DNA of 64,000 bases. Source: an uncultured Rhodospirillaceae bacterium (GTDB lineage: Bacteria; Pseudomonadota; Alphaproteobacteria; Reyranellales; Reyranellaceae). The stretch covers positions 62,001 to 126,000 of the forward strand of contig CAMFGZ010000009.1 in the NCBI GenBank assembly GCA_945952105.1, in the 5' to 3' direction. How positions within the stretch are numbered: position 1 is the stretch's first letter; each line of letters starts with the position of its first letter. The notes below the pieces were generated by a model. The model saw nothing but the letters and a program-made list of their open reading frames with translations. It did no database searches and was not told the origin of the DNA. Position numbers and translations under genes: made by a program. Below, piece by piece: positions 6,796-64,000 of the stretch.

Positions 6796-6863
6796 CCCGT
6801 CAATGGACTGTCGGGGGCGCCGGGGAGTAGGTTCCGGAACCGTTTAATTCCTGGAGCGTTTCC

Positions 6864-7661: not shown

Positions 7662-9506
7662 TTGGATACACCGCATAGCTCCCTGCGCGCCTTCGCCGCC
7701 GTTGCCAGTGGTTACTGGACGGCGCCGGGATACCGCGCCGTCGCCTGGTCGCTGACCGGCGGTCTCGTCGTGCTCGGCGCGGCCAATGTCGGCATCGCGC
7801 TGTGGCTGAACATCTGGAACAGGGATTTCTTCAACGCGCTCGACAAGCGTGACGTCGGGCAGCTCATGCAGCTGCTCTGGATCCTCGCGGCCATCGTCGT
7901 GTCGGCCGGCGTGGCCGTGGCGATCCAGCTCCACGTCAAGCGGCGCTTGCAGATCAACTGGCGGTCATGGCTGTCGCACGTCACCGTCCAGCGCTGGCTG
8001 CATTCGGGCCGCCAGTACCAGCTCGGCATGCTGGCCGACGAGGTCGACAATCCCGACGGTCGCATCGCCGAGGACATCCGCATCTCGACTGAATACGCGG
8101 TCGAGTTCGCGCAGAGCATCCTGCAGTGCGTGCTTCAGCTCTTCACCTTCCTCAGCGTGCTGTGGATCCTGTCGGGCACGCTGCCGATCAAGCTCTTCGG
8201 ACTCGAATTCAACCTGCCGGGCTACATGGTCTGGGCCGCGGTGGCCTATGCGCTGGTCGGCTCGCTGCTGACGTACTTCCTGGGACGCGGGCTGATCCAT
8301 GCCGGCAACGTCCGCCAGAGCCGCGAGGCCGACTTCCGTTCCGGTCTGACGCGGGCGCGCGAGCATGCCGAGGGCATCGCCCTGATGCGCGGCGAGGATG
8401 ACGAGCGCGAACGGTTGCGCGGCTCGCTCTTCGACCTTCGTTCGGCCTGGAACGTCCAGACGCGCGGCCAGGGCAACCTGTCGCTGCTCACCAGCTCGCT
8501 GGCCTACCTCGCGCCCATCGTGCCGCTCATCGTCGCCCTGCCGCGCTATCTCGGCGGAGAGATAGCGCTGGGCGGCCTGATGCAGACGGCCCAGGCCTTC
8601 TCCAGCGTACAGTGGGCCCTGTCGTGGCTGATCGACAATTTCCCGAAGTTCGCCGAGTGGCGCGCCTCGACCGATCGCGTTGTCCACCTGCACGTGGCGC
8701 TCACCGACCTCGAGGAAAGCAGCGAGGTGGCGGACGAGGAGCGGATCGTCGTCCATCCGGCGGCCGAATCGGACCGGCTGATCATGCGCGAACTCGGTGT
8801 GGCCCGGCCGAGCGGCGAGATGCTGGTGGCCGAGGCCGAAGTCGAGATCCAGCGCGCCGAGCGGGTGCTTATCCGCGGCAAGTCGGGCAGCGGCAAGAGC
8901 ACGATCATGCGCGCGGTCGCGGGCGTCTGGCCGTGGGGTCGCGGCGCGATTCATTTGCCTACCGGCAACATCACGTTCATGCCGCAGAAGCCGTACTTCC
9001 CGCTGGGAACGCTGCGCGAGGCGATGCACTACCCGGTCGCGCCGGAAGGCATCACCGACGACGTCCTGAAGGACGTGCTGCACAAGGTCGGCCTCGACCA
9101 TCTCCGTGACCGGCTCGACGAGACCGAGCGGTGGGACCACATCCTGTCCGGTGGGGAACAGCAGCGCGTCGCGTTCGCCCGCGTGCTGATCCACAAGCCC
9201 GACTGGATCTTCATGGACGAGGCCACGTCGGCGCTCGACGAGGCGGGACAGGAGAACGTGATGAATCTCCTGATCGAGGAGCTGCCCGAGACATCGGTCG
9301 TCAGCATCGGCCACCGGCCGGGCCTCGAAGTCTTCCATACGCGCGAGCTGACCCTGGAGCCCGGCGCCGACGGGACGCGGCTCAGGGCCGAAGCGGGCAA
9401 GCGGTCGCTGGGCGATCTCTACCGCAAGATGGCGGCCGCCAGCCGCTCGGCGCCGCGCGATCCGGGCTTCTGGGCCAACGTCCGGGCCAACCTGCTGGGG
9501 CGCTGA
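7662..9506 (+). CDS. SbmA/BacA-like ABC transporter with fused ATPase domain (ABCD/BclA type)
   Basis: A 614-residue half-transporter. The N-terminal SbmA/BacA-type membrane domain (about residues 15-330, including LNIWNRDFFNALDKRD and YWTAPGYRAVAW) precedes an ATPase domain with Walker A GKSGSGKST at 406-414, the LSGGE signature at 495-499 and Walker B WIFMDEATSALDE. SbmA/BacA proteins import peptides, and the ATPase-fused forms (BclA, Rv1819c, YddA) also move peptides or cobalamin. It starts at TTG 7662 immediately after the aldolase stop, since there is no ATG before the first helix. A role in uptake or resistance to antimicrobial peptides is plausible, but the substrate is not shown by context. 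Confidence 0.92.
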   Translation: MDTPHSSLRAFAAVASGYWTAPGYRAVAWSLTGGLVVLGAANVGIALWLNIWNRDFFNALDKRDVGQLMQLLWILAAIVVSAGVAVAIQLHVKRRLQINWRSWLSHVTVQRWLHSGRQYQLGMLADEVDNPDGRIAEDIRISTEYAVEFAQSILQCVLQLFTFLSVLWILSGTLPIKLFGLEFNLPGYMVWAAVAYALVGSLLTYFLGRGLIHAGNVRQSREADFRSGLTRAREHAEGIALMRGEDDERERLRGSLFDLRSAWNVQTRGQGNLSLLTSSLAYLAPIVPLIVALPRYLGGEIALGGLMQTAQAFSSVQWALSWLIDNFPKFAEWRASTDRVVHLHVALTDLEESSEVADEERIVVHPAAESDRLIMRELGVARPSGEMLVAEAEVEIQRAERVLIRGKSGSGKSTIMRAVAGVWPWGRGAIHLPTGNITFMPQKPYFPLGTLREAMHYPVAPEGITDDVLKDVLHKVGLDHLRDRLDETERWDHILSGGEQQRVAFARVLIHKPDWIFMDEATSALDEAGQENVMNLLIEELPETSVVSIGHRPGLEVFHTRELTLEPGADGTRLRAEAGKRSLGDLYRKMAAASRSAPRDPGFWANVRANLLGR

Positions 9507-44580: not shown

Positions 44581-45459
44581 TCAGCCCGTCGGCACCAGCG
44601 TCACGGCGACTCCGTAGGAGTGGGAGTCGCCGCCCAGGATGACGCCGCGCAAGGGGCTCACGTCGGAGAAGTCGCGGCCCCAGGCCACGGCGACATGATC
44701 CTCGTGCGCGATCAGGTCGTTGGTCGGATCGAGATGGACCCAGCCGGCGTCCTCGCCGCACCAAACGGCGACCCAGGCGTGGCTCGCATCGGCCCCGCGC
44801 AGCGCGACTTCCTCCTGGGAGTGGATCGTGCGGATGTATCCCGAGACATAACCCGCTGCGAGCCCGTGGGCGCGCAGCGCGGCGATCTCGACATGCGCGA
44901 AATCCTGGCAGACCCCTGCCTTGCCGGCGAAGACGTCGGCGAGCGGCGTCGAGATGTCGGTGGCGCCGGGGTGATATTCGAAATCGGCCTTGATGCGCGA
45001 GGTGAGTTCGCGCGCCGCTTCGAGGATCGGCCGCCCCGGCGTGAGGGACGTGGCGCCGTAGGCGCGCAACGCCTCGACGCTCGGCACGAGCGGCGATTCG
45101 TGAACGAACTCGCTCGCCTCGACGGGCCGGGGGAAGCCGTCGCCGTTGAGTGTCGCGCGGATCTCTTCCCACGGTGGTGTCGAGGCGGCCGGCGGCGGGT
45201 CGGGAAAACGCACTTCGACCTCGGCACGCACCTCGATGTCGAAACGCGTGTGTGGCTTGTCGATGCGATAGATGTCGATGAGGTTGCCGAAGTGATCGAC
45301 ATGCTGCATCGCCAGCGCGGGCAGCGGGCTGGTCACGATGCTGATCGAGGTGACTTTCTGACCGGGAAAGTCCCGCGCGCGCAGGTGGGCGATGTGATGC
45401 GCCGAGTCCACCGTGCTGGCGTAGGTATAGGTCGTGCGGTGCGAGAGCAGGTAGTGCAC
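44581..45459 (-). CDS. Transglutaminase-like cysteine peptidase family protein (short)
   Basis: A 292-residue protein. The N-terminal transglutaminase-associated beta domain (about residues 1-95, with HYLLSHRTTYTYASTVDSAHHIAHLRARDFPGQ) precedes a transglutaminase core with catalytic Cys in GVCQDFAHVEIAALRAHGLAAGYVSGYI, His in ASHAWVAVWCGEDAGW and Asp in LDPTND. Starts at GTG 45459, 2 nt after the stop of the ATP-grasp gene. In this gene set it is thought to form or cleave amide bonds together with the ATP-grasp partner; the substrate is unsolved. Confidence 0.93.
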   Translation of the reverse strand: MHYLLSHRTTYTYASTVDSAHHIAHLRARDFPGQKVTSISIVTSPLPALAMQHVDHFGNLIDIYRIDKPHTRFDIEVRAEVEVRFPDPPPAASTPPWEEIRATLNGDGFPRPVEASEFVHESPLVPSVEALRAYGATSLTPGRPILEAARELTSRIKADFEYHPGATDISTPLADVFAGKAGVCQDFAHVEIAALRAHGLAAGYVSGYIRTIHSQEEVALRGADASHAWVAVWCGEDAGWVHLDPTNDLIAHEDHVAVAWGRDFSDVSPLRGVILGGDSHSYGVAVTLVPTG

Positions 45460-45461
45460 GG

Positions 45462-47963
45462 TCAGTCTCCGCCCGAGGAGCCGACGGCCTGCGCCGCCGG
45501 CACGTGCGAGAAGTAGGCGCGCGTTATCGCTTCCGAGAGCTTGTCGAGTTGCTGCTCGGTATCGGAGGCGACGTCGCGCAGCATGGCGAGCGCCAGCCCT
45601 TCGTGTCGCCAGGCCTGCTCGTCGCCGCCAAACTGCTTAACGACCGCTTCGAGGTCGACCTCCAGCGAGTCCGGCAGCGCGGCGACCGTGACGCCCGAGG
45701 CGCGCGCCAGGTAGTCGAGATGGCCCTTGATGGCGCGAAGCTGGAACACCAGGCCGCGCGGATTGGCGTCGTCGAGGATGACGAGATCGAGCACCGGCGC
45801 CGGCTGGAGCTGGCCGAGATAGCGCGTGCGGTAGGTGATCGTGCTGTCGCAGAGCTCGAGCGCGAGACGCATCGAGGCGTCCCAGTCGATCGGCGAGAGG
45901 GTGAAGGGTCCCAATGCGCCGTTCAGGATGTGCAGCCCGCGTTCGAGGCGGCGGCCAAGGTCGAGGAAGCGCCAGCCGGTGCCGCGCGTCATGTTTTCCT
46001 GGGCGAGGCCCGAGAGCGTGGCGACGAAGCGCACGATCTCGTCGAGCGCGGCGAGCAGCGGATCGAGGTTGCCGCGTGCCGCCAGCAGGCGTTTGCGCAC
46101 CTCGATCATCTCCGGGCCGGCGGCCGTCGTCATGTCGATCGAGAAGCGGTCGCGCATCGTCGCCGTGAGACGCTGGATGCCGTCGAGCACGGTGGCGAGG
46201 CCGCGGTCGTCGGCGGCGACGGCCGCCAGCCCCTGCTGGAACAGGGCGCTCTCCGGCGGCGCCAGCGCCGACGAGTGGTCCATCAGGTTGGCCTGGTCGA
46301 GCAGTCGGCCGAGCAGCCGCAGCTCGGCGGCGTCGCGCGGGCCGACGGCGCCCTGCGCCACGCGCGCCGCCGTGGTGCGCAGCAGGCGCGCGTCGTTGTC
46401 GAGGCGCTCGATGTAGCGGCCGAGCCAGAAGAGATTGTCGGCGACGCGGCTCTGCAGGTCCGCGCTGCCGCGCTCGACGGCAAGCTGGTGAAAGCGCCGC
46501 ATCGGCGGGAGCTGCACGTCGGCGGCGTCCTCGGCGAGGACCCAGACGTCCTTCAGCGTGCCGTGCAGCCGCCCCAGCGAACGCAGTGCCGTGTCGCCGT
46601 CGGGCTCGCGCGCGAGGCCGCCTGGCAGCACATGATAGGTGTCGTGGTCGGCCACCACATAGGCGCGCAGCACGACCGCCGACGGCACCAGCGACTTGCC
46701 GTCCCACTTGGGCGTCAGCGACGGCGTCATCGGATACTGAGCGACGAACTGGCCGGGCTGGGCGCGGATGCGCTCGACCAGCGCCTTTCGCTCGGCCGGC
46801 TCAAGCATGCCGACGATGATCGGCTCGCGGTCCTGGCCGAGACAGGGGCGCACGATCATGAGGTCGAGGTTGGCCAGCGCGAAGCTCAGCGCAGTGGGCT
46901 CGCCCAGCCACCAGACGTCGAGCGACGGCAATGCCAGCGGCTCGCCGAGCAGGCGTTCGCTCACCCGCTCCAGGAACGGCATCATCGCCGGCGTCTCCAC
47001 GACGCCCGACCCGAGCGCGTTGGCGAGCGCGATCCTGCCGCTTCGCGTGGCCTCGACGAGGCCGGTAACGCCGAGCGCCGAATCGGCACGCATCTCCAGC
47101 GGATCGGCGAAGGAGCTGTCGAGGCGCCGCAGAAGCACATGCACGGGGCGAAGCCCGGCCAGCGTCTTGATCGAGACCTGGCCGTCGCGTGCCACCATGT
47201 CGCCGCCCTCGACGAGCGGGATGCCGAGCACGCGCGAGAGATAGACGTGCTCGAAGTAGGTGGCCGACAGCGAGCCCGGCGTCAGCAGCGCCATGTTGGG
47301 CTGGCTGACGCTGGCCGGCGCGACCGAGCGCAGCGATTCGTGCCAGCGGTCGAAGAAGGGCCGCAGGTGGCGCACCGGGATGGAGCGGAACGCCTCGGGC
47401 AGGCTGCGCGCGAGCACGCGGCGCATCTCGAGCGCGTAGCCGGCGCCGGCCGGCAACTCGGTATGATCGGCCAGCACGTGCCAGCGGCCGTTGCTGAGGC
47501 GCACGAGGTCGACGGCGTAGTGGCAGAGGTGGCGTTGCGGTTCGGCGCCGTCGGTGACCTGCGCGGGACGCAGGAAATGCCGGTTGGCGTGAACCAGCAT
47601 CGGCGGCAGCAGATGCTCCTTCAGGAGCGTCTGCGGGCCGTAGACGTCGGCCAGCACCTTGTCGAGCAGGCGAGCGCGCTGGATCAGGCCGCTCTCGATC
47701 TGGGACCATTCGTCGGGCGCGATGACGAGCGGCAGCGGGTCGAAGTTCCAGCGCGCCGCGGCGCGATCGTCGAGCAGGTTGACGGTGGCGCCCGACTCAT
47801 CGAGCTGACGCCGTGCGCTCTCCACCCGTTCGCCCAGCCCGCCCGGAAGTGCGCGGATGACGCTCAGGATGCCTTGCCAGTGATAGCGGATCGACTTCTG
47901 GCCGGTGACCAGTTCGTCGTACGCGCTTGCCGGCGAGGAAGAGAGGCCGCGCAACGACTCCAT
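45462..47963 (-). CDS. Fused circularly permuted type 2 ATP-grasp and alpha-E domain protein
   Basis: An 833-residue fusion. The N-terminal circularly permuted ATP-grasp (about residues 70-480) has RWNFDPLPLVIAPDEWSQIESGLIQRARLLDKVLADVYGPQ, then ALLTPGSLSATYFEHVYLSRVLGIPLVEGGDMV and LPSLDVWWLGEPTALSFAL. The C-terminal alpha-E domain (about 510-820) begins SRVADNLFWLGRYIERLDNDARLLRTTAARV. In many bacteria these are two separate genes; here they are fused. ATP-grasp enzymes ligate a carboxylate to an amine via an acyl phosphate. The gene sits between two transglutaminase genes, an arrangement described in genomic surveys of amidoligases without a known product. Confidence 0.94.
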   Translation of the reverse strand: MESLRGLSSSPASAYDELVTGQKSIRYHWQGILSVIRALPGGLGERVESARRQLDESGATVNLLDDRAAARWNFDPLPLVIAPDEWSQIESGLIQRARLLDKVLADVYGPQTLLKEHLLPPMLVHANRHFLRPAQVTDGAEPQRHLCHYAVDLVRLSNGRWHVLADHTELPAGAGYALEMRRVLARSLPEAFRSIPVRHLRPFFDRWHESLRSVAPASVSQPNMALLTPGSLSATYFEHVYLSRVLGIPLVEGGDMVARDGQVSIKTLAGLRPVHVLLRRLDSSFADPLEMRADSALGVTGLVEATRSGRIALANALGSGVVETPAMMPFLERVSERLLGEPLALPSLDVWWLGEPTALSFALANLDLMIVRPCLGQDREPIIVGMLEPAERKALVERIRAQPGQFVAQYPMTPSLTPKWDGKSLVPSAVVLRAYVVADHDTYHVLPGGLAREPDGDTALRSLGRLHGTLKDVWVLAEDAADVQLPPMRRFHQLAVERGSADLQSRVADNLFWLGRYIERLDNDARLLRTTAARVAQGAVGPRDAAELRLLGRLLDQANLMDHSSALAPPESALFQQGLAAVAADDRGLATVLDGIQRLTATMRDRFSIDMTTAAGPEMIEVRKRLLAARGNLDPLLAALDEIVRFVATLSGLAQENMTRGTGWRFLDLGRRLERGLHILNGALGPFTLSPIDWDASMRLALELCDSTITYRTRYLGQLQPAPVLDLVILDDANPRGLVFQLRAIKGHLDYLARASGVTVAALPDSLEVDLEAVVKQFGGDEQAWRHEGLALAMLRDVASDTEQQLDKLSEAITRAYFSHVPAAQAVGSSGGD

Positions 47964-48026
47964 GGGCCCGCAAACAGAAGTGGGAACGAGAGGACGATGC
48001 CCTTTCGGGCGGGCGAAATATAAGCC

Positions 48027-51000
48027 CTAGGCGCGGCGCAGGTCGAGCGTCAGCGGATGCTCGGGATTGTCCAGCGGACGGGGTTCCGGCGACGTTCCGC
48101 CGGTATGTCCGATCGCGAAGAAACGGGCACGGCGCCGGGCTTCCGCCTCGTTGGCATTGACCGGCACTCGATCGTAGTTTCGGCCGCCCGGATGGGCGAC
48201 GTGATAGGTGCAGCCGCCGATCGACCGGCCGCTCCACGTATCGTGGATGTCGAAGGTGAGCGGGGCATGCACGCCGATCGTCGGGTGCAGCGAGTTGGCC
48301 GCCTGCCAGGCGCGATAGCGCACGCCGGCGACATACTCGCCGGCTGTTCCGGTGGCGCGCAGCGGCAGCTTCCAGCCGTTGCAGGCGATGACGTGGCGCT
48401 GGTCGTTCAAACCGGCAACCTTGACCTGCAGGCGCTCGACCGTCGAATCGACGTAGCGCACGGTGCCGCCACCGCCGGGCTCCTCGCCCAGCACATGCCA
48501 CGGCTCGAGCGCGTGCCTCAGTTCCAGTTCGAGGCCTCGATGCGCGGTCTCGCCCAGCCGAGGGAAACGGAACTCGAAATGCGGCGCGAACCAATCCGGA
48601 GAAAAGCCATAGCCTGCCTCGCCCAGATCGGAGAGCACGTCGTTGAAATCCTGCCAGACGAAGTGCGGCAGCATGAAGTCGTCGTGCAGGCGCGTGCCCC
48701 AGCGGCTGAGCGGGCGCTCGTAGGGGCGGTCCCAGAACTTGGCGACGAGGCCGCGCAGCAGCGCCTGCTGCGCCACGCTCATGCGCCAGTGCGGCGGCAT
48801 CTCGAAGGCGCGCAACTCCAGCAGGCCGCGGCGGCCGGCGGCGGAATCGGGCGTGAAGAGCTTGTCGATGCAGAACTCGGTGCGATGCGCGTTGCCGGTC
48901 GCGTCGACGAGCAGGTTGCGGAACACGCGATCGACCAGCCACGGCGGCGTCTGCCGGCCCGGGGCGATCTGCTTGAAGGCGATCTCCAGCTCGTGCAGCG
49001 CATCGTTACGCGCCTCGTCGACCCTCGGATGCTGACTGGTCGGACCGATGAACAGGCCCGAAAAGAGATACGAGAGCGAGGGATGGTTAAGCCAGTAGCC
49101 CAGCAGGCTCTTCAACAGGTCTGGCCGGCGCAGCATCGGCGAGTCGGCCGCGGAAGGTCCGCCCAGCACGAAGTGATTGCCGCCGCCGGTGCCGGTGTGG
49201 CGACCGTCGATCATGAACTTCTGCGCGCCCAGCCGCGTCGTGCGCGCCTCCTCGTAGACGATCTCCGTGCGCTCGACGAGATCGGTCCAGTTGGCGGAGG
49301 GATGGATGTTGACCTCGATCACGCCGGGATCGGGCGTGACGCTGAAGTTGAGAACCCGCGAATCGTTGGGCGGCGTATAGCCTTCGAGGAAGACCGGCTG
49401 GCCGAGTTCCTCGGCCGTGTCCTCGAGCGCCGTCACGAGGTCGAGATAGTCCTCCATGCGCTCCGTCGGCGGCATGAAGACGTGGAGATGCCCGTCGCGC
49501 GGCTCGAAGGCCATCGCTGTGCGCACGATCCCGGCGGCGGAGGTTCCTACAGCGGGACCGAGTCCCTGGTCCGGTGCCAGTGCCCGCCGCCACGCCTCGC
49601 GCCGAGCTTCGGCGTCGCCGGCTGCATCGGATGCGAGGCCAGGCTCCTGGCGGCGCAGCACCGGCGCGCGCCGGAAGGCGTCGAGCGGCGGCAAGTTGGG
49701 ATGCGGCGCCATCGGATCGGGCTGCATGATGATGTCGGTGTCGCCCGGCAGCGCCCAGGGCAGCGAGTCGAGCGGCAGACGGTAGCCCAGCGGTGAATCG
49801 CCGGGGATCAGGTAGCACTTCTCCGAGCGCAGGAACCACGGGCCGCTCTTCCAGCGTGGCATGTGCCCATGTCCGTTGCCGCGCCCGTTATGATCGCGAA
49901 TTACCGGCAGCACGTAGCCGACCGAGCTTTCGAGGCCTTTCTCGAACACGCGCGCCAGGCGCTCGCGTTCCAGCGGATCCTTCACCTTGGCTTCGTCGAC
50001 CACGACGTTGCTCGGCAGGCGCCGCTCGCGCCACAGATAGTACCAGGTGTCCTCGTAGGCCGGGAAAAGATAGTCGGGGTCGAGCTGCAGGCGCTGCGCG
50101 AAGGCGAGGGCAAAGCGGTGCGCGGCCTCGACGGTGGCGCCGACCGGCTTGGATTCCAGCGCGTAGAGTTGCGGGTTGCGCCAGATCGGTTCGCCGTCCT
50201 TGCGCCAGTAACAGCCGAGCGCCCAGCGCGGCAGTTGCTCGCCGGGATACCATTTGCCCTGTCCGAAATGCAGCAGCGGGCCGGTTGCGAAGCGGTGCGC
50301 GAGCTTGCGGAACAGTACGCCCGCCAGCCTCCGCTTCTCGGGACCGAGCGCCAGCGTGTTCCATTCCGGCCCGTCCATGTCGTCGACCGACACGAAGGTC
50401 GGCTCGCCGCCCATGGTGAGGCGCACGTCATGCTTGCCGATGTCGCTTTCGATGGCCTCGCCAACCTTGAGCAGGGTCGCCCACTGTTCCTCGGTGTAGG
50501 GCTTGGTCGTGCGTGGCGTCTCGCGCACGCGGGCCACCGTCATCGAATGTTCGAATTCGACTTCGGCCTTCTCGAGCGCGCCCTCGATCGGTGCCGCGCT
50601 CGACGGCTCGGGCGTGCAGGCGAGGGGAATATGGCCTTCGCCGGTCAGCAGGCCGGACGTCGGATCGAGGCCGATCCAGCCGGCGCCCGGCAGGTAGACC
50701 TCGCACCAGGCGTGGAGGTCGGTGAAATCGTGGCTGGTGCCCGCGGGCCCGTCGAGCGGCTTCTCGTCGGCCACGAGCTGGATCAGGTAGCCCGAAGCGA
50801 AGCGCGCCGCGAAACCCAGGTGGCGCAGGATCATCACCAGCAGCCAGCCGGTGTCGCGGCAGGATCCCTTGGCGCGGCCCAGCGTCTCCTCGCAGGTCTG
50901 TACGCCGGGCTCCATGCGGACGATGTAGCCGATCTCCTGCTGCAGGCGGGCGTTCAGGCCGACGATGAAGTCGATGGTGCGCTGCTTCTTGCGGTCGACC

Positions 51001-51398
51001 TTGTCGAGCCACGCCTTCAGCTTCGGCCCAAGCGGTTCCAGCTTGCGGAACGGGGCGATCTCCTCGGCCAGCGAGGCATCGTAGGCGAAGGGCCAGGTCT
51101 CGGCGGAGGGCTCCAGGAAGAAGTCGAACGGGTTGATGACCGACATGTCGGCCACGAGGTCGACCGTGACCTCGAACAGGTCGGTCTTTTCCGGAAACAC
51201 CAGGCGGGCGAGGTGGTTGCCCTGCGGATCCTGCTGCCAGTTGATGAAATGCTGGGTCGGCGTGATCTTCAGCGAGTAGGACAGGACCGGCGTCCGGCTG
51301 TGCGGCGCCGGCCGCAGGCGCACGATGTGCGGCCCCAGCTCGATGGGTCGGTCGTACCGATAGGTCGTCCGATGATGCAGCGCGACGTGGATGCTCAT
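48027..51398 (-). CDS. Large transglutaminase / DUF2126 protein (1123 aa)
   Basis: A 1123-residue protein. The N-terminal transglutaminase region includes a bacterial transglutaminase-like N domain (about residues 1-90), then the core with Cys in [31 protein letters not shown] (about residue 173), His in [15 protein letters not shown] and Asp in LDPTSG. From about residue 310 on the chain is DUF2126, with [55 protein letters not shown] and [15 protein letters not shown]; the latter part resembles a glutamine-synthetase/ATP-grasp-like catalytic core. 63 nt upstream of the ATP-grasp fusion gene and likely in one operon with it. Confidence 0.93.
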   Translation of the reverse strand: [1123 protein letters not shown]

Positions 51399-55776: not shown

Positions 55777-56973
55777 CTACTCGGCGGCCTTGGACGCAGC
55801 CTCGAACGACTGGGCGGCCTGCTCGAGGATGGCGACACCTTCGTCGAGCGCGGCCTTGTCGGCGATCAGGGCCGGGAAGATGCGGACCACGTTCTCGCCG
55901 GCCGGCACGACCAGCAGGCCGAGCGACTGCAGCTTGTTCACCATGTCGCCCGCCGGGACCGACGGGGCGCACTGCAGGCCCTGCAGGAAGCCCATGCCGC
56001 GCTGCTCGACGAACACCTTGGGGTGCTTCTTGCAGAGTTCCTCGAGCTTGCCCTTCAGGTACTCGCCGCGCTCGCGCACGCCGTCGATGAAGCCCGGCTG
56101 CAGGAGGATGTCGAGCACGCCGTTGGCGACGCCGGTGGCCAGCGGGTTGCCGCCATAGGTCGAGCCGTGCGTGCCCGGGACCATGCCGACCGCCGCCTTC
56201 TCGGTTGCCATGAAGGCACCGATCGGGAAGCCGCCGCCCATGCCCTTGGCGATCGCCGCGACGTCGGGCTTCACCCCCGACCAGTCGTAGCCCCACATCT
56301 TGCCGGTCCGGCCGAAACCGGTGTGGACCTCGTCGTAGAACAGCAGCAGGCCGAACTCGTCGCAGATCGAGCGCAGGTCCTTCAGGAACTGCGGGGTGGT
56401 GGCGCGGATCCCGCCCTCGCCCTGGATCGGCTCGACCAGGATGCCGGCGGTCTCGTCATCCACCATGTCGCGCACGACGTTGGTGTTGTTGAGCGGCGCA
56501 TGGCGGTAGCCGGGCGCCGGCGGGCCGAAGCCTTCGAGATACTTCTCGTTGCCGGTGGCGGCGAGCGCGTTCAGCAGGCGGCCGTGGAACGCCGCCTGGA
56601 AGGCGATGATCTTGTACCGCTTGGGCTGGCCGTTCATGTACTGATACTTGCGGATCAGCTTGATGCCGCCCTCGATGGCTTCCGCGCCGGAATTGCAGAA
56701 GAACATCGTGTCGGCGAACGAATTCTCGACCAGCCGCTTGGCCAGCTTCTCGCCGTTGCCGACCCGGAACAGGTTCGACGTATGCCAGAGCTTGGAACCC
56801 TGCTCGGTCAGGGTCTTGACCAGGTGCGGGTGGCAGTGGCCCAGCGCGTTCACGGCGATGCCGGAGGTAAAGTCCAAGTAACGTCGGCCGTCCGCCGCGT
56901 AGAGATAGTTGCCCTCTCCGCGTTCGAACACGACGTCCTTGCGACCGTACGTCGGCATAACAGCCGTAATCAC
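55777..56973 (-). CDS. argD: Acetylornithine (or N-succinyldiaminopimelate) aminotransferase ArgD
   Basis: A 398-residue class III PLP aminotransferase. [35 protein letters not shown] is the N-terminal signature, [19 protein letters not shown] the PLP phosphate-binding block, [43 protein letters not shown] contains the Schiff-base lysine. It converts N-acetylglutamate semialdehyde to N-acetylornithine in arginine synthesis. Starts at GTG 56973 with GGGAGG six bases upstream; ATG at 56958 is an alternative. Own promoter and leader hairpin lie upstream. Confidence 0.96.
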
Positions 56974-56994
56974 AGCTAGCCTCCCTCAAAAACC

Positions 56995-57039
56995 AAAAAA
57001 CCCCCGCCGTTTCAGCGATTCCGGAATGGAAACGCCGGG
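56995..57039 (-). terminator. Terminator-like hairpin in the argD leader
   Basis: In transcription direction CCCGGCGTTTC (57039-57029) pairs with GAAACGGCGGG (57013-57003) with one G-G mismatch and a 15-nt loop, followed by GG and six T (57000-56995). It lies between the predicted argD promoter and start codon, so it could act as an attenuator. Confidence 0.6.
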
Positions 57040-57057
57040 TTTTAGCGAGGGCCCGGC

Positions 57058-57086
57058 ACTATCTTATCCGGGTCCGGGTGTGTCAA
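57058..57086 (-). promoter_or_regulatory. Predicted sigma-70 promoter of argD-argF-hslO
   Basis: On the minus strand TTGACA (57086-57081) is a perfect -35 box, with 17 nt before GATAGT (57063-57058), which matches the -10 consensus at 4 of 6 positions. Transcription should begin near 57051 and run first through the leader hairpin. Confidence 0.65.
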
Positions 57087-57117
57087 CTTGGGCCGGATGG
57101 CCGTAGGCCCACGCCTT

Positions 57118-57135
57118 GAGGGGTTTTGACCCCTC
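57118..57135 (+). other. Small hairpin upstream of the sphingolipid operon start
   Basis: GAGGGGT (57118-57124) and ACCCCTC (57129-57135) form a perfect 7-bp stem with loop TTTG, ending just before the TAGGAG ribosome-binding site of the acyl-AMP ligase gene. It may tune translation, but no regulator is evident. Confidence 0.4.
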
Positions 57136-57156
57136 TGCTAGGAGACCCGCCTTCCC

Positions 57157-58896
57157 ATGAAATTGCTGCCCACCCGCAATTCCACGCTCGCCCTGCATCG
57201 CGCCGGCTTCGCCTCCGTGCCTGCGATGCTCGACTATGCGGCGAAGGGCGAGACCGGGGTGACCTTTTATAATGCCAAGGGTGAGCAACTCTCGGCCTTG
57301 CCGTGGCGCGAGATCCGCGAGCGGGCACAGGTCATCGCCCGCAAGCTGATCGGCGCGGGCTTTGCCCGGGGCGAGCGTATCCTGATCACGGCCGACACCT
57401 GGCCGGGCTTCTTCGACTCGTTCTTCGGCGCCCAGTATGCCGGCCTGCTCCCCGTGCCGGTCTCCATTCCGGTCGGTATCGGCGGCAAAGAGGCCTATCT
57501 CGATCAGCTTCGCCGCCAGTTCGCGGCGTCCGGCGCGGTCGCCGCGGTCGGGCTCGACGATCTCGCGGGCTATCTCGCCGATGCCGCACGGGAATTTCCG
57601 GCCGTACGCCTCCATGGCGGCATGGACATGCTGCATTCCCTGCCCGAGAAGCCGGTCGACCTGCGGCCGCTCGGTGCCGACGACCTCTGCTACATCCAGT
57701 TCTCGTCGGGCAGCACGCGGCATCCCCACGGTGTGCAGATCACCCAGCGGGCGCTGATGGCCAACCTGGCCGGGATGGTCGGACCGGCCGGGCTCGGCGT
57801 CGTCGAGGGCGACCGCGCGGTCAGCTGGCTGCCGCTCTATCATGACATGGGTCTGATCGGCTTCCTGATGGCCCCGCTCTCGACCCAGATCTCCATCGAC
57901 TACCTGACACCGCGCGACTTCGCGCGCCGGCCGATGCAGTGGCTGAACCTGATCTCGCGCAATCGCGGCACGATCTCCTACAGCCCGAGCTTCGGCTACG
58001 ACCTCGCCGTGCGCCGCGGCGCGACCCAGGTCCCGGCCGATCTCGATCTTCGCTGCTGGCGGCATGCCGGCATCGGCGGCGACATGGTGCGGGCCGACGT
58101 GCTGGAGCGCTTCGCGACGACCTTCGAGCCGTTCGGCTTCGACAGCAAGGCCTTCATCCCGAGCTACGGCATGGCCGAGGTCTGCCTCGCCATCACCTTC
58201 TGCCCTCACGATACCGGCGTGCGCACCGATGCCGTCGAGCGCACGGCGCTGGCCGAGGCGCAGCGCGCGGTGCCGGCCGCCGATCCGGCCGACGACCACA
58301 AGGCGCGCCGCTTCGTGATCTGCGGTCGCGTGCTGCCGGGCCACAAGCTGGAAGTGCGCGATCCTGAGGGCAAGGTTCTGTCCGACCGCTCGGTCGGCCG
58401 CATCTTCGTGTCGGGCCCCAGCATCATGCCGGGCTATTTCGGTGAGCCCGAGGCCAGCCGCGAAGTCCTTTCCGACGGTTGGCTCGACACCGGCGACCTC
58501 GGCTACATGCTGGACGGCGAGATCGTCGTCACCGGCCGCGCCAAGGACCTGATCATCGTCAACGGCCGCAACGTCTGGCCGCAGGACATCGAATGGGCGG
58601 TCGAGGCCAAGCGCGTTGTGAAGAACGGCGATGCGGCGGCCTTCTCGATCGATACCGGCGAGGGCGAGCGCGTTGTCGTGGCCGTGCTGGCGCGCGTGTC
58701 GGGCGAGGAGGCGCGGGTCGCGCTGGCGCGCGACGTGGCGGGCGCGGTGCGTGAGGCGATCGCCGTCGATTGCGACGTGGCGCTGGTGCCCCCGACGCTT
58801 GGCCTGCCCACCACCTCCTCCGGCAAGCTGTCGCGCGCCCGGACGAAGGCCAACTACCTCGCCGGCCTCTACGCGCCGAAGCCCGCGGCGGCCTGA
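57157..58896 (+). CDS. aasR: Fatty acyl-AMP ligase/acyl-ACP synthetase of the ceramide locus (AasR-like)
   Basis: A 579-residue adenylate-forming enzyme of the fatty acyl-AMP ligase class. The AMP-binding signature is YIQFSSGSTRHPHGVQITQRALMAN (about residue 180), GSTRHPHGVQ replacing the usual GTTGxPKGV; HDMGLIGFLMAPL, PSYGMAEVCLAI and TGDLGYMLDGEIVVTGRAKDLIIVNGRN are further motifs. It activates a long-chain acid for transfer to the dedicated acyl carrier protein, feeding serine palmitoyltransferase. First gene of a plus-strand block including cerR, acp and spt; the Caulobacter ceramide locus has the same set. Confidence 0.92.
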   Translation: MKLLPTRNSTLALHRAGFASVPAMLDYAAKGETGVTFYNAKGEQLSALPWREIRERAQVIARKLIGAGFARGERILITADTWPGFFDSFFGAQYAGLLPVPVSIPVGIGGKEAYLDQLRRQFAASGAVAAVGLDDLAGYLADAAREFPAVRLHGGMDMLHSLPEKPVDLRPLGADDLCYIQFSSGSTRHPHGVQITQRALMANLAGMVGPAGLGVVEGDRAVSWLPLYHDMGLIGFLMAPLSTQISIDYLTPRDFARRPMQWLNLISRNRGTISYSPSFGYDLAVRRGATQVPADLDLRCWRHAGIGGDMVRADVLERFATTFEPFGFDSKAFIPSYGMAEVCLAITFCPHDTGVRTDAVERTALAEAQRAVPAADPADDHKARRFVICGRVLPGHKLEVRDPEGKVLSDRSVGRIFVSGPSIMPGYFGEPEASREVLSDGWLDTGDLGYMLDGEIVVTGRAKDLIIVNGRNVWPQDIEWAVEAKRVVKNGDAAAFSIDTGEGERVVVAVLARVSGEEARVALARDVAGAVREAIAVDCDVALVPPTLGLPTTSSGKLSRARTKANYLAGLYAPKPAAA

Positions 58897-58905
58897 CCGC
58901 TCGCC

Positions 58906-59826
58906 ATGGGCAAGCTGGTCGCCGTCACCGGGGCCACCGGCTTCGTCGGTCCCCATCTCGTCGCTGCTCTCGCCCGCCGTGGCTGGCGGCTGCGGATCCT
59001 GGTCCGGCGCTGGACCCCGCTGCCGTCGCTGGCCGGCGTCGATGCCGATCTCGTCCTGGGCGATCTCTCCTCCGAGGCAGCGCTGCGCCAGCTCGTCCGG
59101 GGTGCGGACGCGGTGATCCATGCAGCCGGGCTGATCAAGGCCCGGCGGGCCGCCGACTTCCTGCCGGTGAACCGGGACAGTGGTGCCCTCCTGTCGGCGC
59201 TGGCACCGGACGCCCACATGGTTCTGCTCTCGTCCCTGGCCGCTCGCGAGCCACAGCTTTCTGCCTATGGAGCGAGCAAGCGCGCAGGCGAGGCAGTCGT
59301 TGCCACCCGCAGCGGTCGCTGGGCCATCGTGCGCGCGCCGGCGGTGTACGGACCGGGCGATCGGGAGACCTTGGCTTATTTCCGAGCGGTTAACTCGGGT
59401 ATTGCGCCGCAGCCCCACCTGCCGTCGGCCCGCCTGTCGCTGATCCATGTCGCAGACCTTGCCGAGGCGCTGGCCCTGACCGTGGAGCGGCCGCCTCCCA
59501 ACGGGACCTACGAGATCGACGACGGCCAGGTCTACACCTACGAAGACATGGCGAGGGCGGCGGGTGAGGCGCTGGGCCGCCGAGCCTTGCGGATCTCGGT
59601 CCCGCGGGGCGTCATGGCTTGTCTCGCAGGGTGGAACGAGATGCGACAGGGTTTGGGGGCCGGCCCCCAGATTCTGACCCAAGGGAAGGTCAACGAGATC
59701 TTCCACCCCGACTGGTCGGTCCGGGATCGCGGCCTGGCCGCAGCGATTGGCCTCCAGCCACGTTATGACCTGACGTCCGGCTTCCGCGACACGATCTTGT
59801 GGTATCGCGCCAAGCACTGGCTATAG
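58906..59826 (+). CDS. cerR: NAD-dependent epimerase/dehydratase, CerR-like (3-oxosphinganine reductase role)
   Basis: A 306-residue extended SDR. The N-terminal cofactor motif TGATGFVGPHLVAALARRGWRLRILVRR and active-site YGASK in AREPQLSAYGASKRAGEAV are present, with PAVYGPGDRETLAYFRAVNSG and SLIHVADLAEALAL in the substrate half. In Caulobacter the equivalent CerR reduces a ceramide-pathway ketone. Starts 9 nt after the ligase stop. The assignment rests mainly on position between the ligase, the acyl carrier protein and serine palmitoyltransferase. Confidence 0.88.
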   Translation: MGKLVAVTGATGFVGPHLVAALARRGWRLRILVRRWTPLPSLAGVDADLVLGDLSSEAALRQLVRGADAVIHAAGLIKARRAADFLPVNRDSGALLSALAPDAHMVLLSSLAAREPQLSAYGASKRAGEAVVATRSGRWAIVRAPAVYGPGDRETLAYFRAVNSGIAPQPHLPSARLSLIHVADLAEALALTVERPPPNGTYEIDDGQVYTYEDMARAAGEALGRRALRISVPRGVMACLAGWNEMRQGLGAGPQILTQGKVNEIFHPDWSVRDRGLAAAIGLQPRYDLTSGFRDTILWYRAKHWL

Positions 59827-59960
59827 GACGCGTGAAACACGGCGTAACAATTTGTCATTTCACTAGGAATCGCTGTTTCTGGCACAAGATGGCCGCCCAC
59901 CCCCGGGCCTTGGAGAGCGTTTTGCGCACTGCCCATCAAATGATCGTCGAAACCGACGGC

Positions 59961-60242
59961 ATGACCGACACCCTCGAACGCGCCCGCATCGTCGGCCAGT
60001 CGCGTGGTGAGGTCATTCGTGAAATCTGCCGTCACCTCGCGCCTTTCCAGACCGGCGAGCGCCCGATCACGGGCGACACGGTGATCGCCAAGGACCTGAC
60101 CATCGACTCGCTCGCCATCATGGACATGGTGATGGAGCTCGAGGACCATTTCGACATCTCGATCCCCATGAACGTCGTGGCCGAGATCCATACCGTCGAT
60201 CAGCTCGCCGACACCATCCAGAAGCTCTGCGCCCGGCGTTAG
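59961..60242 (+). CDS. acpR: Acyl carrier protein dedicated to sphingolipid synthesis (AcpR-like)
   Basis: About 93 residues when started at ATG 59961. The phosphopantetheine attachment serine is S50 in DLTIDSLAIMDMVMELEDHFDISIPM, a typical DSL motif followed by the acidic recognition helix. Other in-frame ATGs at 59940 and 59889 extend the N-terminus; none has a strong ribosome-binding site, so the exact start is uncertain. It would carry the acyl group from the AMP ligase to serine palmitoyltransferase. The gene stop is 2 nt from the next ATG. Confidence 0.9.
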   Translation: MTDTLERARIVGQSRGEVIREICRHLAPFQTGERPITGDTVIAKDLTIDSLAIMDMVMELEDHFDISIPMNVVAEIHTVDQLADTIQKLCARR

Positions 60243-60244
60243 CC

Positions 60245-61471
60245 ATGGGCCTGTTCGATCGGTATGAGGGCCTGCTCGAGGCCTATCGGGACGTTCGGAC
60301 CACCGGGTACGACCCTTTCCAGATTCGCATGGAAAGGGTTCTGTCGCCGACCGAAGCCATCATCAATGGCCGCAAGACCCTGCTGGTCGGCACCAACAAC
60401 TATTTCGGCCTGACCTTCGATCCGAGCTGCATGGAAGCGGCCATCGAAGCGATCCGTGCCGAGGGCACTGGCACGACCGGCTCGCGCATCGCCAACGGCA
60501 GCTACACCGAACACGTGGCGCTGGAGCAGGAGATCGCCGAGTTCTACGGCAAGAAGCACTGCATGGTCTTCACGACCGGCTACCAGGCCAATCTCGGCCT
60601 GATCTCGACTCTGGCGGGCGAGGGCGACCAGCTTCTGATCGACGCCGACAGCCATGCCTCGATCTACGACGCCTGCAAGATGACGCAGGCCGAGGTCGTG
60701 CGCTTCAAGCACAACGATCCGTCGAGCCTCGAGGCGCGCCTGCGCCGGCTGGGCGACCGTCCGGGCAATCGCGTGGTCGTGCTGGAAGGCATCTATTCGA
60801 TGCTGGGCGACAGCGCGCCGCTGCGCGAGTTCATCGATGTCTGCAAGAAGTACAAGGCCTATGTGATCGTCGACGAGGCCCATTCGCTGGGCGCGCTGGG
60901 CGACAACGGCCGCGGCCTCTGCGAATCGACGGGCGTGATCGACGATTGCCACTTCATCGTCGGCACCTTCTCCAAGACGCTGGGTGCCATCGGCGGCTAC
61001 TGCGTCTCGGACGATCCCGACTTCGACATCCTGCGCGTCACCGTGCGCTCCTACATGTTCACCGCCTCGCTGCCGCCGTCGATCGTGGCGTCGGTGCGCC
61101 AGGCGCTCAAGGTGGTGAAGGCCAGGCCCGAGTTGCGCACGCAGCTCTGGTCCAACGTGGCGACGCTCTACGAAGGCCTCGCCGCCAAGGGCTTCAAGCT
61201 GGGTCCCGAGCATGGGCCGGTCGTCGGCGTGCACCTGCCGGACCGCATGATCGCCATCGGCTTCTGGCGTGCCATGCTCGATGCCGGCATCTACGTGAAC
61301 GTCGCCGTGCCGCCCGCGACGCCCAACGGCGTCTCGCTGCTGCGCTGCTCGGTCTGCGCGGTCCATACCAAGGAACAGCTCGAGCACATGGTCGAGGTCA
61401 TGACCGGTATCGCGCGTCAGTTTGGCGTTCTCGAAGACCGCACGCTCCGCGTGGTTGGCGGCGCCCACTAG
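60245..61471 (+). CDS. spt: Serine palmitoyltransferase (alpha-oxoamine synthase)
   Basis: A 408-residue PLP enzyme. The family pattern includes NNYFGLTFDPSCMEAAIEAIRAEGTGTTGSRIANGSYTEHVALEQEIAEFYGKKHCMVFTTGYQAN, the cofactor aspartate in IVDEAHSLGALGDNGRG and the Schiff-base lysine K244 in GTFSKTLGAIGGY. It condenses serine with an acyl thioester to 3-oxosphinganine, the first committed step of sphingolipid synthesis. Neighbouring ligase, acyl carrier protein, CerR and bCerS-like genes make this assignment stronger than the related KBL and BioF possibilities. Confidence 0.95.
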   Translation: MGLFDRYEGLLEAYRDVRTTGYDPFQIRMERVLSPTEAIINGRKTLLVGTNNYFGLTFDPSCMEAAIEAIRAEGTGTTGSRIANGSYTEHVALEQEIAEFYGKKHCMVFTTGYQANLGLISTLAGEGDQLLIDADSHASIYDACKMTQAEVVRFKHNDPSSLEARLRRLGDRPGNRVVVLEGIYSMLGDSAPLREFIDVCKKYKAYVIVDEAHSLGALGDNGRGLCESTGVIDDCHFIVGTFSKTLGAIGGYCVSDDPDFDILRVTVRSYMFTASLPPSIVASVRQALKVVKARPELRTQLWSNVATLYEGLAAKGFKLGPEHGPVVGVHLPDRMIAIGFWRAMLDAGIYVNVAVPPATPNGVSLLRCSVCAVHTKEQLEHMVEVMTGIARQFGVLEDRTLRVVGGAH

Positions 61472-61483
61472 GGCGCGCCTGCC

Positions 61484-62404
61484 ATGTTCACCCTCGCGCA
61501 CCTCTCCGACCCGCATCTGCCGATGCCGCAGGCGCGCGCGCTCGATCTCCTCGGCAAGCGAGCCACCGGCTACTACAACTGGTGGCGCAACCGCGTGCAG
61601 CTTCACCGCCCCGAAGCGCTGGCCGGGATCGTCGCCGACATCAAGGCGCGGAAGCCCGACCATATCGCGCTGACCGGCGACCTCGTTAACATCTCGCTGC
61701 CCGATGAATTCGCCCGCGCCTCGACGTGGCTGGAAGGGCTGGGCGCGCCCGATGAAGTCACGGTCGTTCCCGGCAATCACGACGTCTATGTCGCCACCCT
61801 GTGGCGCGAGGGGCTCGGTCGCTGGGGCGCCTACATGGCGGGTGACGGGCAGCCGCCCGCGGCCGACTTCGAGGTCTTCCCGATGCTGCGCCGGCGCGGG
61901 CCGGTCGCGCTGGTCGGGCTGAACAGCGGCCTGCCGAAGCCGCCCTTGCTGGCGACCGGCACGCTGGGCGACGCCCAGATCGCCGCCACCGGGAAGTTGC
62001 TCGCCGAACTGGGACGCGAGGGTCTCTGCCGCGTGGTGATGATCCATCATCCGCCGCTCACCACCGAGTCGCGCTTCAAGCGCCTGACCGACGCTGCCGC
62101 CTTCCAGGCGATGATCCGCCGTGTCGGCTGCGAGATCGTGCTGCACGGCCACAACCATCGCAGCGAGGTCGCGCGCATCGCGGGACCGCAGGGGCCGGTG
62201 CCGGTGGTCGGCGTCACCTCCGCATCGGCGGCGCCCGGCAGCAAGTACGGCCGCGCGCGCTACCACCTGATCGGCATCGAGCGCGAGATCACGGGATGGC
62301 GCATCACCGTCGACATTCGCGCTCTCAAGGCCGACCTCACGGGCTGCGAGCCCGACGGCCGGTTGGTGTTCAACAGCGGCGCGCCGGCCGCGCTGGCAGC
62401 TTGA
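61484..62404 (+). CDS. Metallophosphoesterase (calcineurin-like) inside the ceramide locus
   Basis: A 306-residue calcineurin-like phosphoesterase. Metal-ligand motifs: LAHLSDPHLPMP (Asp, His), ALTGDLVNI (Asp), VVPGNHDVYV (Asn, His), RVVMIHHPPL (His) and VLHGHNHRSEV (Gly-His-x-His). No signal peptide. It lies 12 nt after spt and 7 nt before the bCerS-like gene, so it is probably co-expressed with ceramide synthesis. A UDP-2,3-diacylglucosamine-, lipid-phosphate- or cAMP-phosphodiesterase activity is possible; a step on a phosphorylated sphingoid intermediate is my inference. Confidence 0.9.
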   Translation: MFTLAHLSDPHLPMPQARALDLLGKRATGYYNWWRNRVQLHRPEALAGIVADIKARKPDHIALTGDLVNISLPDEFARASTWLEGLGAPDEVTVVPGNHDVYVATLWREGLGRWGAYMAGDGQPPAADFEVFPMLRRRGPVALVGLNSGLPKPPLLATGTLGDAQIAATGKLLAELGREGLCRVVMIHHPPLTTESRFKRLTDAAAFQAMIRRVGCEIVLHGHNHRSEVARIAGPQGPVPVVGVTSASAAPGSKYGRARYHLIGIEREITGWRITVDIRALKADLTGCEPDGRLVFNSGAPAALAA

Positions 62405-62411
62405 GGCGGCA

Positions 62412-63563
62412 ATGGCTTCGTCCGACATCATCGTCAGCCCGGTCGACTCGAAGGCCGACCTGAAGGCCTTCATCGCGGTTCCGAAGCGGCTCTACGCCGG
62501 CCACAAGGGCTACATCGCGCCGCTCGACCTCGAGCGCATGGAGGCCTTCACGCCGGGCAAGAACCCGCTGTTCGAGCATGTCGAAGTGCGCTTCTTCCTG
62601 GCGCGTCGGGCGGGCAGGGTGGTCGGCCGCATCTCCGCGCAGATCGACCGCGCCTATCTCGAACGCTACCAGGACAGTACCGGCCATTTCGGCTGCCTCG
62701 CCGCCGAGGACGATCCGGCGATCTTCGCCGCGCTGTTCGAGGCGGCCGAGGACTGGCTGCTCTCCAAGGGCATGAAGCGCGCGACCGGCCCGTTCAGCCT
62801 CTCGGTCAACGAGGAGGTCGGCCTGCTGATCGACGGCTTCGACAGCCGGCCGGTCCTGATGGTGCCCTACGATCCCCCTTACGCCGGACCTCGGGTCGAG
62901 GCCTGCGGCTATGCCAAGGCCAAGGACGTCTTCTCCTACGACTACGACGTCCAGAACGCGCCCGAGACGATTGGCGCCAAGCTGCTGAAGCGTGGCGGCC
63001 TGGAGGGCCGGGTCAAGGTGCGCACCGCCAACATGAAGATGTTCGACGCCGAGGTCCGCACCCTGGTGAACATCTTCAACGATGCCTGGAGCGACAACTG
63101 GGGCTTCGTGCCCTTCACCCAGGCCGAGATCGACCATGCCTCCAAGGCCTTCGGCCCGGTGATCGTGCCCGAACTGGCCGTGTTCGTGGACGTCGACGAC
63201 GAGAGCGTGGCCTTCATCGTGGCGCTCACCAACCTCTACGAGGCGGTCAAGGAATTCGACGGCAAGCTGGGGCCGGTGAAGCTCGCCAAGCTCCTGTGGC
63301 GCCTCAAGATCGCCGGCGTCGGCAGCACGCGCGTGCCGCTGATGGGCGTGAAGAAGAAGTTCCGCAACCATCCGCTGCTGGGCGCCGGGCTGGCGATGAT
63401 CGCCATCGATCACCTGCGCGCGAACGGCAAGCGGCTGGGCAAGACCTCGGCCGAGCTGGGCTGGATCCTCGAGGACAACAAGGCGACCAACAACATCATC
63501 CGCTCGGTCGGCGGGGTGCACTACAAGACCCACCGCATCTACGAGAAGGCGCTGGCGGGGTGA
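62412..63563 (+). CDS. bcerS: Bacterial ceramide synthase-like acyltransferase (GNAT-type, bCerS)
   Basis: A 383-residue protein starting IIVSPVDSKADLKAFIAVPKRLYAGHKGYIAPLDLERMEAFTPGKNPLF, the start block shared with the Caulobacter bCerS group of GNAT-like proteins (often annotated hypothetical). Central ATGPFSLSVNEEVGLLIDGFDSRPVLMVPYDPPYAG and C-terminal GKTSAELGWILEDNKATNNIIRSVGGVHYKTHRIYEK are GNAT-fold segments. It would attach the second acyl chain to the sphingoid amine. The GTGA overlap with the next gene indicates translational coupling to the MFS transporter. Confidence 0.88.
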   Translation: MASSDIIVSPVDSKADLKAFIAVPKRLYAGHKGYIAPLDLERMEAFTPGKNPLFEHVEVRFFLARRAGRVVGRISAQIDRAYLERYQDSTGHFGCLAAEDDPAIFAALFEAAEDWLLSKGMKRATGPFSLSVNEEVGLLIDGFDSRPVLMVPYDPPYAGPRVEACGYAKAKDVFSYDYDVQNAPETIGAKLLKRGGLEGRVKVRTANMKMFDAEVRTLVNIFNDAWSDNWGFVPFTQAEIDHASKAFGPVIVPELAVFVDVDDESVAFIVALTNLYEAVKEFDGKLGPVKLAKLLWRLKIAGVGSTRVPLMGVKKKFRNHPLLGAGLAMIAIDHLRANGKRLGKTSAELGWILEDNKATNNIIRSVGGVHYKTHRIYEKALAG

Positions 63564-64000
63564 GCGCGACGGCGCCTCCACAGCCGCCCCAAAGGCCGCC
63601 CTCCGCCTTCGCGCCGCTCGCCAACCGGTCGTTCCTGGCGATGTGGATCGCCAACCTGATGTCGAACGTCGGCGGCTGGATGCAGACCACGGGTGCGGCC
63701 TGGGAGATGACCAGCCTGACGCAGGAGCCCATCTTCGTGGCCCTGCTGGCCGCGGCAGGCACCCTGCCGATGTTCCTGTTCTGCTTCTTCGCCGGCATCC
63801 TCGCCGATCGTTTCGACCGCCGCCGCTACATCATCTGCTGCCAGGTCTGGATGATGGCCGTCGCCGCGACGCTGGCGGCCCTGGCCTTCTTCGGCCTGCT
63901 CAACCACTGGAACCTGCTGGCGCTGTCCTTCTGCATGGGGCTCGGCAACGCGATGAATGCGCCGGCCTGGCACGCCGTCGTGCCGGAGATCGTCACCGGC
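63560..64000 (+). CDS. MFS transporter, EntS/DHA3-like (3' truncated by window edge)
   Basis: Starts at GTG 63560, overlapping the bCerS stop by 4 nt, and stays open to the window end (147 residues). After a proline-rich tail, NRSFLAMWIANLMSNVGGWMQTTGAAWEMTSLT is the start of the enterobactin-exporter-like MFS_3 group, with GTLPMFLFCFFAGILADRFDRRRYI as the loop 2-3 motif. At least four helices are visible. It may export a lipid precursor or an unrelated compound; the coupling to ceramide synthesis is the only hint. Confidence 0.88.
   Translation, partial: MSATAPPQPPQRPPSAFAPLANRSFLAMWIANLMSNVGGWMQTTGAAWEMTSLTQEPIFVALLAAAGTLPMFLFCFFAGILADRFDRRRYIICCQVWMMAVAATLAALAFFGLLNHWNLLALSFCMGLGNAMNAPAWHAVVPEIVTG

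Follow-up and report, generated by a model that had tools for sequence, protein, structure and literature searches.

What covers the surface of a bacterium that has the genes to make ceramide and seems no longer to have those for lipopolysaccharide (LPS)? The question is raised by a locus in a 64,000 nucleotide stretch of DNA from an uncultured member of the Reyranellaceae (GenBank assembly GCA_945952105.1, contig CAMFGZ010000009.1, positions 62,001 to 126,000; the whole stretch is called the window below). At positions 57157-63563 of the window, on the plus strand, lies a six-gene operon, aasR-cerR-acpR-spt-pde-cerS, which is predicted to specify ceramide synthesis, in a genus, Reyranella, where LPS appears to have been lost. 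The explanation favoured here, and judged probable, is that ceramide arises through the known pathway and that a sphingolipid replaces LPS in the outer leaflet, without Lpt and without a phosphoglycerate head group. Gene identities, conservation, gene losses and the collapse of the locus are established as far as sequence can establish them. Why some Gram-negative bacteria can lose lipid A is an open question (PMC10964400).

Is the ceramide pathway complete?

The initial annotation had seen a plus-strand block at this place, and six plus-strand open reading frames are indeed found there, separated in turn by 9, 62, 2, 12 and 7 bp. Proteins of Escherichia coli B (BL21) were the reference for sequence comparison, Caulobacter being compared by way of published gene descriptions. 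The first gene, aasR (57157..58896; 579 amino acids (aa)), encodes a fatty acyl-AMP ligase or acyl-AcpR synthetase that matches NF006624 (fatty acyl-AMP ligase) with 746 bits where the cut-off is 600, scores 482 bits against the PDB fatty acyl-adenylate ligase 3pbk and is 41% identical to AasR of E. coli B. The product of cerR (58906..59826; 306 aa), an SDR-type (short-chain dehydrogenase/reductase) ceramide or 3-ketosphinganine reductase, has Epimerase/NAD-binding Pfam matches and the superfamily motifs GATGFVG and YxxxK; it is 32% identical to its E. coli B homologue over 310 columns, and the position of its gene is conserved among the loci of relatives. The dedicated acyl carrier protein (ACP) encoded by acpR (59889..60242, start uncertain) matches PF00550 (PP-binding), has the serine of a DSL motif and is 43% identical to E. 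coli B AcpR over 51 aa, its gene ending just short of spt. Its reading frame had earlier been begun at a GTG at 59799, and this start has to be given up: it overlaps cerR, the N-terminal extension it adds is poorly conserved across relatives, and translation more likely begins at the ATG at 59889 or further downstream.

The serine palmitoyltransferase (SPT) gene, spt (60245..61471; 408 aa), belongs to a group of enzymes in which identity needs care, and comparison with KBL and BioF had been set beforehand as the check that might refute the assignment. When it was run, SPT models and PDB chains scored best. The protein reaches 648 bits against NF047599 (serine palmitoyltransferase; cut-off 500), as against 317 bits with the BioF model and 268-296 with KBL models, both under their own cut-offs; the best PDB chains are SPT (2x8u, 442 bits), KBL following at 223 bits, and identity to E. 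coli B SPT is 48%. A BioF or KBL identity is thereby ruled out. In the alignment the pyridoxal phosphate lysine is K244, and H137, D210, H213 and R367 are also retained, all five being residues with catalytic roles. Where Sphingomonas SPT has an arginine, R378, the Reyranella enzyme has valine; as E. coli B SPT has leucine at the equivalent residue, an arginine of this type is seemingly not required.

For CerS (cerS, 62412..63563; 383 aa), a bacterial ceramide synthase, Pfam, NCBIfam and PDB searches gave no match, and no sequence relative in the PDB was found even by profile search. It is, however, 41% identical to YghO of E. coli BL21 over 377 aa, and its AlphaFold model (pLDDT 76) has a tandem GNAT fold by fold search. 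Family models and E. coli B homology thus back the five functions that had been proposed from a first reading; their joint encoding at the locus is supported, and ceramide synthesis in Reyranella is well supported, production itself being predicted from the genes. In E. coli BL21 the ACP and the SPT have been studied experimentally; of the genomes compared in that work, C. crescentus and E. coli BL21 were the only two with all five genes in a cluster (PMC9386255).

How would the enzymes act together? By homology with the systems of PMC9386255 and PMC11087976, AasR would load a fatty acid onto AcpR, SPT would form 3-ketosphinganine from acyl-AcpR and serine in the cytoplasm, CerS would add a second acyl chain there, and CerR would reduce the product to dihydroceramide, a step that in Caulobacter is periplasmic (the compartments, CerS in the cytoplasm and CerR in the periplasm, are those of PMC11087976).

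Is the operon kept by selection? Among SPT sequences that of Reyranella aquatilis is nearest (99%), those of R. massiliensis, R. soli and Enhydrobacter aerosaccus come next, and SPT is present in all 37 Reyranella genomes. The six-gene order is retained in nearly all Reyranella loci long enough to judge, the exceptions (L057, L077, L084, L090 and L100) having other DNA between spt and pde. All six genes are under purifying selection, with dN/dS values of 0.05-0.41 against five relatives. Conserved order and purifying selection rule out chance clustering. Among Reyranella relatives, transporter-like gene inserts split the operon after spt in L057, L063, L077 and L084, and in L063 the 10 kb examined end before pde. 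Metagenome-assembled genomes (MAGs) with other genus names, at loci L062, L079 (titled Asaia bogorensis) and L066 (titled Rhizobium sp. Q54), have an SPT 88-89% identical to that of Reyranella and flanking genes as in Reyranella; their genus names look wrong.

A locus probably reduced from an older cluster

In a genome of another genus of the same family, G196, the locus is much longer. It begins with argD, an ELM1-like gene, a flippase-like gene, aasR, cerR, acpR and spt, and continues after spt with cpgA, cpgC, pde, lptF2, lptG2, a CDP-alcohol transferase gene, a fatty-acid hydroxylase gene, cerS, a major facilitator superfamily (MFS) gene and odc. Vineibacter and Dongia have loci that resemble it (for Dongia genes the cpg names rest on position and domain, not on comparison with Caulobacter proteins), and its order is colinear with CC_1162 to CC_1154 of Caulobacter as described in PMC11324152. 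Reyranella has flanks of the G196 type, argD on one side and MFS-odc on the other, but pde alone between spt and cerS. Most simply, then, the short operon would have arisen by reduction of an older cluster: on the evidence of gene content and order Reyranella has lost from the locus the genes for the flippase-like protein, CpgA, CpgC, LptF2, LptG2, the CDP-alcohol transferase and the fatty-acid hydroxylase, with the ceramide genes and the phosphoesterase kept. Relocation of lptF2/G2 or the cpg genes to elsewhere in the genome was considered and rejected, searches for LptF/G and for CpgA-, CpgB- and CpgC-like proteins having found none. Both Vineibacter and G196 (L101, L152) retain LptF/LptG inside the ceramide locus.

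What became of the head group? A CpgA-like protein is absent from the Reyranella genus, apart from one marginal 20-bit match with a stop. In the window's genome no protein resembling the ceramide kinase CpgB was found: its one DAGK protein is of the YegS type, and the match of that protein to the Dongia CpgB homologue spans only 102 aa. The genome also encodes three CDP-alcohol transferases, but a CpgC-like one is not among them. These searches thus found no ceramide phosphoglycerate route in Reyranella, and the head group would have to differ from that of its family relative.

The retained phosphoesterase gene, pde (61484..62404; 306 aa), is in the CC_1158 position, and CC_1158 of Caulobacter also carries a phosphoesterase domain (cluster of PMC11324152). 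Its product is a calcineurin-like metallophosphoesterase (PF00149) whose metal-binding motifs are shared by at least 97% of 72 homologues; the AlphaFold model (pLDDT 91) has Lmo2642, GpdQ and Rv0805 as its closest folds. Homologues occur in ceramide clusters of families f28, f30, f36, f41, f54, f67, f84, f118 and f133, and since Dongia, Vineibacter and several other families have the gene at an equivalent position, a random insertion is ruled out. For CC_1158 the role proposed in Caulobacter is removal of a nucleotide from CPG2. As the Cpg route was not found in Reyranella and Pde is nonetheless kept, this is unlikely to be the role of Pde, whose probable substrate is a sphingolipid intermediate carrying a phosphodiester or phosphate. 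Its retention without CpgA, CpgC or a CpgB-like kinase questions the part assigned to CC_1158 in CPG2 synthesis, provided that the two proteins are orthologues.

Elsewhere in the genome, on contig C14, a GT4 glycosyltransferase gene lies beside one for an LpxH-like phosphoesterase and divergent from one for a YegS-type lipid kinase (L151, G000:C14:20001-40000, at about 6200-9130). Pde has no significant similarity to that LpxH-like protein. The group may serve in lipid remodelling and is a candidate source of head groups for glycolipids.

Is LPS still made?

By family-model searches, which gave matches in E. coli and Caulobacter as controls, LpxC is absent from 36 of the 37 Reyranella genomes, LptD likewise from 36, and LptF/LptG from the window's genome and all 37. 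In most other genera of the class the searches do find them, and their parallel absence includes two single-contig Reyranella genomes (G016, G022). A local view is provided by the window's genome, where the run rpsB-tsf-pyrH-frr-uppS-cdsA-dxr-rseP-bamA-fabZ is intact and fabZ starts 19 bp after bamA, glyoxalase and citrate synthase (gltA) genes coming next (L149, G000:C18:60001-80000). In this bamA-fabZ neighbourhood, their usual place, lpxD, lpxA and lpxB give no tblastn match, whereas E. coli rseP, bamA, fabZ, uppS, cdsA and dxr queries all do. As BamA and a second Omp85 protein are encoded in the genome, an outer membrane is present. Loss of LPS in the Reyranella genus is strongly supported by these gene absences.

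Does the pairing of ceramide genes with LPS loss extend beyond one genus? Among 387 Alphaproteobacteria genomes at least 90% complete, SPT is found in 56 and LpxC in 340. SPT is present in 33 of the 47 LpxC-minus genomes and in 23 of the 340 LpxC-plus ones, with 14 having neither and 317 LpxC alone (Fisher odds ratio 32, p 6e-22). Counted by genus, 18 have SPT without LpxC, 17 both, 11 neither and 217 LpxC alone, i.e., SPT in 18/29 LpxC-minus versus 17/234 LpxC-plus genera (odds ratio 21, p 2e-11). In each of families f71, f84 and f30, LpxC is missing in an SPT-plus genus and present in an SPT-minus genus. The LpxC-minus, SPT-minus genomes among those listed are nearly all small (1.2-2.5 Mb). 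The pattern fits an order of events in which ceramide synthesis came first and then permitted LPS loss.

What takes the place of LPS?

With the lipid A pathway and the LPS exporter lost, a ceramide-based lipid is the most likely substitute for LPS in the outer leaflet, by analogy with the glycosphingolipid of Sphingomonas, and with the cpg head-group genes and LptF2/LptG2 lost as well, its head group and transport route would have to differ. Sphingolipid supports LPS-free Caulobacter, and Sphingomonas is without lipid A (PMC12275187, PMC10964400). By its position the MFS_3 protein encoded after cerS is a candidate flippase; in G196 the MFS gene is farther from cerS than in Reyranella. A fuller proposal, in which a ceramide-derived lipid without LPS or Lpt forms the outer leaflet with a new head group and envelope route, and in which ceramide synthesis came before, and made possible, the repeated loss of LPS in Alphaproteobacteria, seems to us evenly poised between right and wrong.

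Several points weigh against replacement. No head group or transporter for the Reyranella sphingolipid was identified, and the absence calls come from family-model searches of mostly draft genomes. In one MAG, G034 (75% complete, 3% contaminated), LpxC is present, the 3 kb contig that carries it also bearing a fragment of FtsZ, and another, G013 (87% complete, 6% contaminated), has a partial LptD at a contig end; the GC content of the latter contig fits the bin, and contamination is not proven. The association tests of SPT with LpxC ignore phylogeny, and 23 LpxC-plus genomes also have SPT, so that LPS loss does not follow from the presence of ceramide genes. The literature searched (subscription papers being outside its scope) has no report of sphingolipid or LPS analysis, or of missing LPS, in Reyranella.

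Could LPS, then, still be made by diverged or unassembled genes, with ceramide an accessory lipid as in Caulobacter? The LpxC of G034 and the partial LptD of G013 are what would be expected, but LpxC, LptF/LptG and LptD are absent in parallel, the single-contig genomes included, and the lpx genes are gone from a conserved operon with its flanking genes intact, so that this is quite improbable. Less probable still, and to our minds barely credible, is that the SPT-like enzyme and its partners make some other alpha-oxoamine product, such as a BioF- or KBL-like metabolite, a sulfonolipid or a signal. Alpha-oxoamine synthases are all related and cysteate acyltransferase also aligns; however, the SPT equivalog score is over its cut-off with BioF and KBL under theirs, and a dedicated ACP, a ligase, a reductase and a YghO-like acyltransferase all adjoin spt.

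A different possibility grants the loss of LPS and makes ceramide a minor component, the LPS-free leaflet consisting mainly of glyco-diacylglycerols, hopanoids and phospholipids and the locus being a remnant of a phosphosphingolipid system. The disappearance of the head-group and Lpt genes is in keeping with this, as are the GT4 glycosyltransferase beside the LpxH-like phosphoesterase and the lipid kinase in the genome, and a Reyranella relative, Enhydrobacter aerosaccus, has been analysed for hopanoids (PMC12583986). A remnant, though, would not obviously have six genes under purifying selection and kept together across the genus, nor SPT in 37/37 genomes and tied to LpxC loss class-wide; we regard a minor role for ceramide as unlikely, and replacement of LPS by a ceramide-based lipid as the better account.

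A survey of the class in 2020 had sphingolipids apparently restricted to Sphingomonadales (PMC7179689). The ceramide pathway being already known, Reyranella is, as far as could be checked, a new taxon for it, with a reduced cluster. Why does it matter? Reyranella is common in the environment and has cultured type strains, which makes it a natural test of sphingolipid replacing LPS; its want of LptF/LptG or LptD suggests that sphingolipid delivery need not use Lpt, and with SPT tied to LpxC loss across the class it becomes possible to test whether LPS loss is permitted by sphingolipids.

Surroundings of the operon

The operon probably continues past cerS into the MFS_3 transporter gene (63560..64000, plus strand; 417 aa, its start only in the window; PF05977, 362 bits), which overlaps the cerS end by 4 bp (63560-63563; GTGA junction) and follows cerS across Reyranella. 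After it, also across Reyranella, come genes for a pyridoxal phosphate-dependent ornithine/diaminopimelate/arginine-type decarboxylase and a saccharopine-dehydrogenase-like (homospermidine synthase-like) protein (L009 17224-19892, G000:C9:127224-129892). Upstream, argD (55777..56973, minus strand) is a flanking gene outside the pathway that also adjoins the locus in Vineibacter, G196 and G037. The 183 bp between the divergent argD and aasR (56974..57156) is a probable operon control region, though no promoter-like site was found on its plus strand. A minus-strand run of genes at 44581-51398 encodes large proteins of 292, 833 and 1123 aa, transglutaminase-like ones among them, that have no evident tie to the ceramide locus.

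Comparison with known systems

The Caulobacter crescentus ceramide/CPG2 cluster, CC_1165-CC_1152 (PMC11324152, PMC9386255), has in common with Reyranella the order aasR-cerR-acpR-spt and the five functions, and in both a phosphoesterase gene stands at the CC_1158 position, the likeness being one of place and domain. Reyranella differs in being without cpgA, cpgC, a CpgB-like kinase, LptF/LptG and LpxC. A gene order unlike that of Caulobacter had been noted at the outset, and rightly: in Caulobacter cerS (CC_1154) is eight genes from spt (CC_1162; PMC11324152), and in Reyranella it is two genes away, most simply because the locus has collapsed. E. coli BL21, with yghO, aasR, epi, acpR and spt (PMC9386255), has five homologues 32-48% identical to those of Reyranella; unlike Reyranella, it has yghO divergent, LptF/LptG beside the cluster and no phosphoesterase in it, and makes LPS. 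Nearer relatives have Vineibacter/G196 and Dongia-type loci that are colinear with the Reyranella one, Vineibacter and G196 sharing also the argD neighbour, but keep cpgA, cpgC, lptF2, lptG2, a second CDP-alcohol transferase gene and a fatty-acid hydroxylase gene between spt and cerS. As G196 lacks LpxC, like Reyranella, the Lpt pair of its locus presumably carries sphingolipid only. The f14 genomes, probably sphingomonads, belong to the other comparison that matters, Sphingomonas, where LPS is replaced by glycosphingolipid: one of them, G049, keeps the LptF, LptG and LptD that Reyranella has lost, but f14 genomes and Reyranella are alike in having SPT present and LpxC absent.

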